From a virus, in IMG/VR virus record IMGVR_UViG_3300024431_000018, positions 1 through 36,803 of that record: DNA of 36,803 nt; one strand, written 5' to 3'. The notes under the pieces are model-generated. The model had not been told where the DNA came from and ran no database searches. It saw nothing but the letters and a program-made list of their open reading frames with translations. How positions within the stretch are numbered: position 1 is the first letter of the stretch; the number at the start of each line of letters is the position of its first letter. Made by a program: the position numbers and the translations under genes. Positions 2,267 through 5,328 of this stretch are shown here, piece by piece.

Positions 2267-3022
2267 ATGAAATTGCTTGACACATTCGCAGGAATTGGGG
2301 GGTTTAGCTTAGGTTTAGAAAGTTCCGGAATGGAAACTATAGCTTTTTGTGAGATAGAAGATTATCCAAGAAAGGTATTAGCTAAGAATTGGCCCGGTAT
2401 TCCAATTGCTAAAGATGTTACAAAACTTAACTATAAAGATGAGGTGCTTTATGACGATGGACAAGAAATCTACAGAGGACCAATTGACGTTATTTCAGGA
2501 GGATTCCCCTGCCAAGATATCAGTGTTGCAGGAAATCAAGCCGGTATTGAAGAGGGAACCAGGTCGGGCTTGTGGAGCGAGTGCGCCCGTCTACTTAGGG
2601 AGATTCAGCCCAAATATGCAATATATGAAAACGTCACAGCACTCCTTTCTGGAGACAGCGGAGGATGGTTTCAACGAGTTCTCTCAGACATTTCCGAGGT
2701 CGGGTATGATGCGGAATGGCACTGTATACAGCCTGACTTTGTTGGAATACCCACGATTAGAGACAGAGTATGGATATTGTCCTACCCCAAGGAAAAGCAT
2801 GTGGCGCAAGTGGTGGACTCGAGAAGATTATCACTCGAACATAGAAGAATGGGGGCCGACCATCTTTCCAGATTTGGATGGGCAGTGGATGGAAGCCAAA
2901 TGGGTAGAGATTCTAATGGGGTTCCCGATGTTACACACAGATTTGGATGCTTAGGTAATGCTGTTGTTCCTCAAATTCCAGAATTAATTGGCCGGGCGAT
3001 AATGGAATCACATAATGACTAA
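2267..3022 (+). CDS. dcm: DNA (cytosine-5) methyltransferase, compact form
   Basis: The ordered motifs of C5-cytosine methyltransferases are present in 251 residues. The S-adenosylmethionine loop LLDTFAGIGGFSLGL is at about 3-17. The catalytic loop GGFPCQDIS contains the nucleophile Cys82. YENV has its glutamate at 121, IRDRVWIL lies at about 164-171, and FGCLGNAVVPQ at about 225-235. The stretch between motif VIII and the C-terminal motifs, where the target recognition domain sits, is only about 40 residues, much shorter than in typical bacterial enzymes of 300-400 residues. GAGG lies 8 bases before the ATG. The probable role is self-modification of phage DNA against host restriction. No cognate restriction gene is visible. 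A second long frame occupies the middle of this gene. Confidence 0.93.
   Translation: MKLLDTFAGIGGFSLGLESSGMETIAFCEIEDYPRKVLAKNWPGIPIAKDVTKLNYKDEVLYDDGQEIYRGPIDVISGGFPCQDISVAGNQAGIEEGTRSGLWSECARLLREIQPKYAIYENVTALLSGDSGGWFQRVLSDISEVGYDAEWHCIQPDFVGIPTIRDRVWILSYPKEKHVAQVVDSRRLSLEHRRMGADHLSRFGWAVDGSQMGRDSNGVPDVTHRFGCLGNAVVPQIPELIGRAIMESHND
2451..2954 (+). CDS. Gene nested in the methyltransferase gene in another frame, LTLFQEDSPA-type protein
   Basis: A 167-residue frame lies entirely within the cytosine methyltransferase gene, one base out of phase. Its ATG (2451; alternatively 2457) follows its own GAGGTG at 2441-2446. The product begins DQLTLFQEDSPAKIS, which is the shifted reading of the methyltransferase PCQ loop. 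It continues with TFPRSGMMRNGTVY, CPTPRKSMW and ends with WVEILMGFPMLHTDL. I recall the same series (LTLF.eDSPA, WPRSGMM.NG, PTP, WVE.LMGFP.gWTdL) from phage and prophage proteins deposited beside cytosine methyltransferases, sometimes under the methyltransferase name. The length without a stop in AT-rich DNA argues for selection. Function is unknown, and expression is not shown. Confidence 0.6.
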   Translation: MTMDKKSTEDQLTLFQEDSPAKISVLQEIKPVLKREPGRACGASAPVYLGRFSPNMQYMKTSQHSFLETAEDGFNEFSQTFPRSGMMRNGTVYSLTLLEYPRLETEYGYCPTPRKSMWRKWWTREDYHSNIEEWGPTIFPDLDGQWMEAKWVEILMGFPMLHTDLDA

Positions 3023-3083
3023 AGAAATAATAATAGGCTTTACACTAATACTACTTTTTATCTTAGCGGGGGCTGATTGGTGA
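3015..3083 (+). CDS. 22-residue hydrophobic peptide
   Basis: A tiny frame overlapping the methyltransferase stop and the start of ninG. It would make MTKEIIIGFTLILLFILAG followed by ADW, that is, one transmembrane segment and almost nothing else. Short membrane peptides of this kind are common between phage genes, but a frame this short can also be chance. There is no clear ribosome binding site of its own, so translation would depend on coupling to the upstream gene. Confidence 0.35.
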   Translation: MTKEIIIGFTLILLFILAGADW

Positions 3084-3637
3084 AAGTTAAGCTTAAGAAG
3101 TGTGCTGTATGTAAAGCTAAGTTTCAGCCGTTTAACTCACTTACTAAAGTTTGCTCTCCTAAATGCGCCTTAGAATTAGTTAGCCAGAATAAGAAGAAGA
3201 AAGCGCGAAAGGATAAGCTAGAGTATCGCAAAGAGAATAAGAAAATATCAGAATGGATAGCTGAGGCTCAAGTAAGTATAAATACTTATGTACGCCTGAG
3301 AGACATTGATAATCCTTGTATAAGCTGTGACAAACCAGCTAACCAAGACCCAAATGAATGGGATGCTGGCCACTACAGGAGCAGAGGAAGCGCCCCACAC
3401 TTAAGATTTAACCTAGATAACAACCATAAGCAATGTAAGCACTGTAATCGTTACTTATCGGGAAATATCGTAGAATATAGACCTCGATTAATTAAGCGAA
3501 TAGGGCTAGAAAAGGTTGAGGCAATCGAGACTAACAACGCTTATAAAAAGTTTGATCGTGTTTACTGTGAAAGGGTAAAAAGGATATTTAACAAAAAAGC
3601 AAGGATATTAAAAAAGCGTCATGACTCCCGAAACTGA
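3080..3637 (+). CDS. ninG: NinG/Rap recombination nuclease
   Basis: The product is about 185 residues if read from GTG 3080, which follows a GGGGG run by 8 bases; TTG 3077 is an alternative. It shows the NinG (lambda Rap) layout. An N-terminal zinc-binding motif has C..C and C...C spacing (KKCAVCKAKF and VCSPKCA), followed by a Lys-rich helix. A core motif reads DNPCISCDKP, WDAGHYRSRGSAPHLRFN, NHKQCKHCNRYLSGN. Lambda Rap is a structure-specific endonuclease that cuts recombination intermediates such as D-loops and Holliday junctions. Here it sits at the end of the replication block, as in lambdoid nin regions, and would resolve branched phage DNA. Confidence 0.92.
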   Translation: MKVKLKKCAVCKAKFQPFNSLTKVCSPKCALELVSQNKKKKARKDKLEYRKENKKISEWIAEAQVSINTYVRLRDIDNPCISCDKPANQDPNEWDAGHYRSRGSAPHLRFNLDNNHKQCKHCNRYLSGNIVEYRPRLIKRIGLEKVEAIETNNAYKKFDRVYCERVKRIFNKKARILKKRHDSRN

Positions 3638-4668: not shown

Positions 4669-5328
4669 ATGAAAACTAAAATTTATGAAAACTATAAAGA
4701 CTTCTTAAAAAGAGAAGATAGAAACGAAAATGGTGTTAGTAAGGAGTTTGCAGAATTGCACCCGAACTTTGAAAAGGACAACTTAACAAATAAAGCTTGC
4801 TGGAACTGCTATGGCTGCTATGGCTGCTCTGACTGCTTTGACTGCTATGGCTGCTATGACTGCTCTGACTGCTCTCACTGCTCTGACTGCTCTGACTGCT
4901 CTGACTGCTCTCACTGCTCTGACTGCTTTGACTGCTCTGACTGCTTTGACTGCTCTGACTGCTTTGACTGCTTTGACTGCTATCGCTGCTCTGGCCAAAC
5001 AGGCGACAAAAAAGCAGGAATGAAAATCCCAAAAATAGAAAATATCCATAACCAAGTATTAGAGGTTGTATCACAAGATAACGCCTTGGATATGTCCACA
5101 TGGCATACATGTGAAACCACGCATTGCCGAGCAGGATGGGTGGTTAATTTAGCAGGGAGAGAAGGTAAGGAATTAGAACGTAAAACTTCTACTGGATTTG
5201 CTGCCTTGCAAATTTATAACGCATCATCTGAGATAAAAGTTTCACCCCCAAGGTTTTTTGAAACCGATGAAAAGGCTATGGAAGATATTAAAAGGTGCGC
5301 TAAAGAAGAGTTAACCCCTACACCATAA
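4669..5328 (+). CDS. Cysteine tripeptide-repeat protein with HTC..THCRAGW C-terminal domain
   Basis: A 219-residue protein in three parts. Residues 1-43 are charged and helical. Residues 44-107 carry a cysteine at exactly every third position (22 in all), built from SDC, FDC, YGC, YDC and SHC units. Residues of about 118-214 form a separate domain with the motif WHTCETTHCRAGWVVNLAG and a C-terminal helix, ending DEKAMEDIKRCAKEE. I recall phage and bacterial proteins with the same domain pair, but know of no proven function. The repeat could form a regular solenoid or bind many metal ions. The start shares a 16-base leader with the next gene. The repeat keeps other frames open, producing spurious ORFs on both strands. 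Confidence 0.8.
   Translation: MKTKIYENYKDFLKREDRNENGVSKEFAELHPNFEKDNLTNKACWNCYGCYGCSDCFDCYGCYDCSDCSHCSDCSDCSDCSHCSDCFDCSDCFDCSDCFDCFDCYRCSGQTGDKKAGMKIPKIENIHNQVLEVVSQDNALDMSTWHTCETTHCRAGWVVNLAGREGKELERKTSTGFAALQIYNASSEIKVSPPRFFETDEKAMEDIKRCAKEELTPTP
4798..4989 (+). repeat. 9-base tandem repeat encoding the cysteine triplets
   Basis: About 21 copies of a 9-base unit close to TGCTCTGAC, with TTT, TAT and CAC variants in the non-cysteine codons. Every cysteine codon is TGC. The regular unit suggests growth by slippage or unequal crossing over, so copy number may vary between relatives. Confidence 0.9.

Follow-up and report, generated by a model that had tools for sequence, protein, structure and literature searches.

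The methyltransferase gene of the phage DNA analysed here (the window: the whole stretch of 36,803 nucleotides of IMG/VR virus record IMGVR_UViG_3300024431_000018) contains a second gene, nested entirely within it and one base out of phase, that is real and under selection. The outer gene, alpha (2267–3022, plus strand, as are all features below), encodes the 251-aa catalytic subunit of a C5 cytosine methyltransferase (C5-MTase) with motifs I–VIII and X; the target-recognition domain and motif IX are absent from its frame. The inner gene, beta (2451–2954), lies in the +1 frame, encodes 167 aa plus a stop codon and is identified by stop counts, synonymous constraint, dN/dS ratios and a match to PHROG_1008. 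Such a nested pair was found in all 59 non-redundant relatives selected by their methyltransferase. The locus is probably a nested heterodimeric C5-MTase of the M.EcoHK31I type, phage-borne and widespread. A two-frame layout of this kind was reported for a bacterial methyltransferase in the 1990s. Literature searches, with most subscription journals outside their coverage, returned no report of the present family as an overlapping gene and, as far as can be told, what is new here is the evidence for selection and the breadth of the family.

Alpha matches PF00145 in a Pfam search (E 2e-43; 149 bits against a gathering cut-off of 22) over only positions 1–168 of the 324 in the profile, with the catalytic motifs I, IV, VI and VIII present. 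Its profile aligns to residues 13–186 of HhaI and then, weakly, to residues 293–318, skipping 187–292, the part of HhaI that holds the target-recognition domain and motif IX. The AlphaFold2 model of alpha (mean pLDDT 82.5, pTM 0.81) has the large-domain fold of HhaI (Z 23.7 over 221 residues) and is confident except at residues about 181–230, mostly at pLDDT 50–60, which form a low-confidence linker at the position occupied in HhaI by the target-recognition domain and motif IX. The single-chain enzymes M.HhaI and M.HaeIII carry both elements in the same chain as the catalytic motifs, whereas alpha lacks this half of a C5-MTase. The catalytic PCQ loop of motif IV lies at 2507–2515, where the beta frame reads SPAK, and motif X (LGNAVVP) at 2951–2971, its first residue overlapping the beta stop codon.

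Selection on the second frame was assessed in relatives picked from IMG/VR by the methyltransferase protein alone, using fully degenerate patterns, and the second frame therefore had no influence on their choice. Synonymous codons were shuffled within each gene, and stops were counted from shortly upstream of the PCQ motif to shortly upstream of motif X. The 59 relatives together hold 3 stops in the +1 frame where 204 are expected; the +2 frame of the same genes, taken as a control, holds 682 against 553 expected. For the window gene alone there are no +1-frame stops against 4.4 expected, an outcome reached by a fraction of 0.003 of shuffles. The first-pass annotation had argued that so long an open frame is very unlikely by chance, and both this and the scarcity of stops in relatives are borne out. 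The +1 frame ends just upstream of the GNAV motif in nearly all relatives, whatever the length of the gene.

Third bases of four-fold degenerate alpha codons, compared over pairs that are 35–75% identical in protein, are identical at 27–31% of sites outside the overlap and at 45–95% inside it, with peaks over the beta motifs FPRSGMMRNG (0.95) and WVEWLMGFP (0.92). Single changes, classed as silent or not in each frame, give dN/dS ratios of about 0.09 for alpha and about 0.21 for beta across the overlap; these are given without p-values because the pairs are non-independent. Alpha is the tighter frame over the catalytic part (0.06–0.09 vs 0.26–0.41 for beta), and after motif VIII beta is far the tighter in the group to which the window belongs (0.04 vs 0.28–0.31 for alpha). 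Among the single-change classes, no change creating a stop in beta was seen within the overlap. Both measures show a strong excess of constraint at positions that are synonymous in the methyltransferase, the test that the first-pass annotation had proposed. In relatives that share a cassette between the PTP motif and motif IX, identity over it is 88% for the beta frame against 55% for the alpha frame, and it is higher for beta in each of the 113 pairs.

Counted from stop to stop, the +1 frame spans 190 codons, running from 2385 as far as the TAG at 2952–2954. The ATG at 2451 has a Shine-Dalgarno-like GAGGTG (2441–2446) 4 nt upstream; alternative starts are an ATG at 2457 and a TTG at 2406. The coordinates, phase and motifs given in the first-pass annotation all hold. 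The start ATG is kept in 55 of the 59 loci where 39 are expected, mostly with a Shine-Dalgarno-like sequence upstream. Most of the listed relatives have GGAG or GAGGTG 4–6 nt before the beta ATG, which supports initiation there only moderately, because the neighbouring alpha codons are common to the relatives. The first beta motif, LTLFQEDSPA, is a shifted reading of the PCQ loop and the two products evolve together over that catalytic loop, as had been proposed; TFPRSGMMRNG (2688–2720), with nearly invariant columns in beta, is likewise the shifted reading of ISEVGYDAEW of alpha, which it overlaps. Then follow the PTP cassette (2781–2888), which the identity by frame and the dN/dS ratios after motif VIII mark as the probable target-recognition segment, and a motif IX-like helix, AKWVEILMGFPMLHTDL (2889–2951), which contains WVEILMGFP and in which the M, G, P and T columns are invariant. 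Modelled alone with AlphaFold2, beta is poor (pLDDT 60.6, pTM 0.26), the helix of residues 149–156 (motif IX) being the sole part above pLDDT 80. This would be expected if beta folds on its partner, and a shallow alignment could account for it as well; a fold search with the model was dropped as the model is too weak.

The reading that we favor is that one C5-MTase is made as two polypeptides from the same bases. Alpha, in frame 1, would bind S-adenosylmethionine and provide the catalytic motifs PCQ and ENV, together with motif VIII and the closing helix of motif X. Initiating within alpha at its own ATG, beta would supply the PTP cassette for target recognition and motif IX from its C-terminal half and would probably bind alpha through its N-terminal half. 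Methylation of cytosine by the heterodimer, in a short site, would protect phage DNA from host restriction, which is the usual role of phage C5-MTases. We infer that beta is translated, that the heterodimer forms and is active, and that it has a sequence specificity and protects the phage. The first-pass annotation had suggested an antirestriction or modification gene pair; two gene products from one stretch of DNA stand, but beta is most likely the subunit with target recognition and motif IX and not an antirestriction protein.

A heterodimer appears to be the most economical reading and fits the published partition of motifs in M.EcoHK31I, the heterodimeric C5-MTase of YGGCCR. Lee, Kam and Shaw are said to have described in 1995 an M.EcoHK31I beta polypeptide of 176 aa encoded in another frame inside the gene for a 309-aa alpha, and both polypeptides were reportedly needed in vitro. 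The likeness to the window pair lies in this nesting and in the motif layout, with motifs I–VIII and X in the large subunit and motif IX alone in the small polypeptide (PMC3404938). The pairs differ in that ours is phage-borne and outside any identified restriction-modification locus. They differ also in the target-recognition domain, which for M.EcoHK31I was placed in the large subunit, an assignment that is itself a prediction (PMC3404938), whereas the corresponding segment in the window is far more constrained in the frame of the small subunit. M.AquI, the split C5-MTase of CYCGRG, likewise consists of a catalytic alpha and a C-terminal beta as two polypeptides, but its beta holds motifs IX and X, whereas the window has motif X in alpha and a beta that is nested along its entire length. 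The M.AquI layout is shared by the actinophage relatives Refuge (82/81), RedBird (71/72) and ArV1 (067a/067b); in these and in Kingsley the C-terminal part with motifs IX and X is encoded by a gene of its own that overlaps in the +1 frame.

Homology links the C-terminal half of beta with that of single-chain C5-MTases. PHROG_1008, labelled 'DNA methyltransferase' in PHROGs, is the beta family: it is matched by all 31 aligned beta proteins (the window beta at E 4e-12, over residues 4–121 only) and also, downstream of the catalytic domain, by Batiatus gp66 (168–437, E 4e-72), McProf gp6 (258–447, E 1e-49) and locus L151 (262–296, E 3e-9). In Batiatus gp66, from an actinophage, the catalytic domain is joined to the PTP cassette, motif IX and motif X in one chain. 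In L151, from an alphaproteobacterial genome bin, one frame runs from the catalytic domain through LNPDWVEWLMGFPIGWT to LGNAVVP; the motif IX-like motif of beta here occurs in frame with the catalytic domain and in register with LHPRECARVMGYP of HhaI, and the alignment to HhaI LHPRECARVMGYPDSYK - FGNSVV is worth only 3 bits in that part. When the profile of beta was compared directly with those of Batiatus and Refuge, the alignment was confined to the PTP segment. Beta had no match in Pfam or NCBIfam, and sequence searches of the PDB gave one chance-level match only.

The nested arrangement dominates among 232 loci: in 227 the two genes overlap at +1, in four the motifs of alpha and beta lie in one ORF and in one alpha is broken. 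The first-pass annotation had raised the prospect of stand-alone homologues of beta, and none occurs among these 232. Two candidates were rejected, namely AUR97051 of Vibrio phage 1.236.O, stand-alone by annotation, where alpha is open in the other frame, and L143, which is the same pair with alpha cut beside a transposase-like ORF. Of the four single-ORF cases, L151 and Batiatus gp66 are informative; L021 and L153 change frame partway through the gene and may reflect sequence errors or gene disruption. The family occurs in phages of Pseudomonadota, Bacillota, Bacteroidota, Actinomycetota and cyanobacteria as well as in bacterial genome bins; searches of E. coli and plasmids yielded related nested genes, including a pseudogene, none of which could be linked to M.EcoHK31I. 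Paenibacillus phage Lily, which is of the window type, has the same +1 nesting in g62/g63, with g63 annotated 'g62 internal gene', and so does Streptococcus phage MM1 in orf13/orf14, annotated 'C5 methyltransferase alpha/beta subunit'; in both, the N-terminal half of beta is homologous to that of the window beta (PHROG_16143 and PHROG_1008).

The MM1-type phages of Streptococcus differ from the window in that frame 1 of alpha already includes motifs IX and X; in the relative L242, PF00145 covers positions 1–322 of 324. Beta in this group is about 140 aa long, conserved and under synonymous constraint, its frame is open beyond the shuffles in almost every gene, and it ends in LSDILEE.VDEKYFLS in place of the PTP cassette and motif IX. 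That ending resembles the segment after motif VIII in frame 1 of phage IME-SA4. Nested pairs of the MM1 type were seen in L232-L310 and L108:1459-1884. The group contradicts the idea, which we discarded, that every beta is a motif IX donor: because alpha there has motif IX and beta is kept, supplying motif IX is not the sole role of the family. The heterodimer reading does not account for the retention of beta beside a complete alpha in MM1-type phages. Beta may therefore do something more, and its N-terminal half is the probable seat of that additional role. We think it possible, if on the unlikely side, that this half is a module born by overprinting of the catalytic domain, with a function of its own (clamp, activator or antirestriction factor), and kept wherever the nested pair occurs, MM1-type phages included; if so, a dual-coded gene would have tied two functions to each other in phages whose hosts belong to distant bacterial phyla.

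It is hardly credible that the +1 frame is open solely through codon or codon-pair constraint on the methyltransferase, with no second protein. The motifs of both frames do coincide on the DNA, but the synonymous shuffles and the +2-frame control contradict this account, as does synonymous divergence at background level outside the overlap in the same genes. Beyond the overlap, MM1-type genes have no constraint on the +1 frame (ratios 0.8 and 2.3) and changes that create stops occur, and not every related methyltransferase has an open +1 frame (L316, 27 codons downstream of PCQ). The by-product alternative in the first-pass annotation, that database entries of the second frame mirror conserved methyltransferase codons, predicts free alpha synonymous sites in the overlap; we reject it because these sites are constrained. 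A programmed +1 frameshift that joins both frames into a single alpha-beta chain would, if it took place after motif VIII, restore the target-recognition domain and motif IX, and actinophage genes do occur in either form, split at +1 or fused into a single ORF. The window beta, however, stops upstream of motif X, which the product would lack, and has its own conserved internal ATG with a Shine-Dalgarno-like sequence, and for these reasons we judge frameshifting very improbable; the N-terminal half of beta, moreover, is itself constrained yet would be absent from any frameshift product.

A somewhat better, though still distinctly unlikely, account makes beta a separate effector, an antirestriction protein or a regulator of the methyltransferase, overprinted on alpha, its likeness to motif IX being incidental or a relic. 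The retention of beta in MM1-type phages speaks for it, as does the N-terminal half, which is without a match in Pfam, NCBIfam or the PDB and holds one of the strongest peaks of constraint. An effector sits poorly, however, with the lack of a stand-alone copy among the 232 loci, with the presence of the beta C-terminal half in one chain with a catalytic domain and with the location of the strongest beta constraint in the window group, which falls on the target-recognition and motif IX segment; PADLOC models, too, gave nothing convincing for beta, only a chance-level match, although a missing match carries little weight.

Phage annotation usually overlooks the nested pair. Because gene callers tend to retain a single frame, the specificity-setting subunit is probably absent from the annotation of many phage C5-MTases; where it is missed, alpha cloned alone would yield an inactive enzyme. 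Double-stranded DNA phages have few long, fully nested same-strand gene pairs for which selection on both frames is strongly supported, and the family offers natural split enzymes and single-chain forms for studying the origin of overlapping genes and the exchange of recognition cassettes.

Several further observations concern the relatives. In the closely related mycobacteriophages Kingsley (L320:1329-2646), Batiatus and Shauna1 (L109 and L319) the methyltransferase occurs as one ORF or in two frames, a natural fusion-splitting series. In Vibrio, Pseudomonas and Leptospira relatives (L114 from 1312, L313 from 1501 and L317 from 1308) beta spans almost the entire alpha gene, its ATG standing 4 nt downstream of the alpha start codon (ATGAATGAG or TTGAATGAG), so that a single ribosome binding site could serve both frames. 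A 100% identical beta lies on a contig binned as a Betaproteobacteria genome (L115:967-1467), which may point to the host or to an error in binning. Immediately upstream of the nested pair, two bacterial loci (L132:2830-3780 and L147:2373-3326) have another methyltransferase-like gene of a different kind (YYNE.DP.AA.W..., HFFAG.G). In the window itself, the gene after the methyltransferase (3077–3637) resembles, by eye, a NinG-type protein with a cysteine cluster and an HNH-like motif, and a 219-aa ORF at 4669–5328 has in its middle about 19 copies of a 9-nt unit that encode (C-x-D/G-C-x) cysteine repeats, the other frames also being open throughout the repeat.
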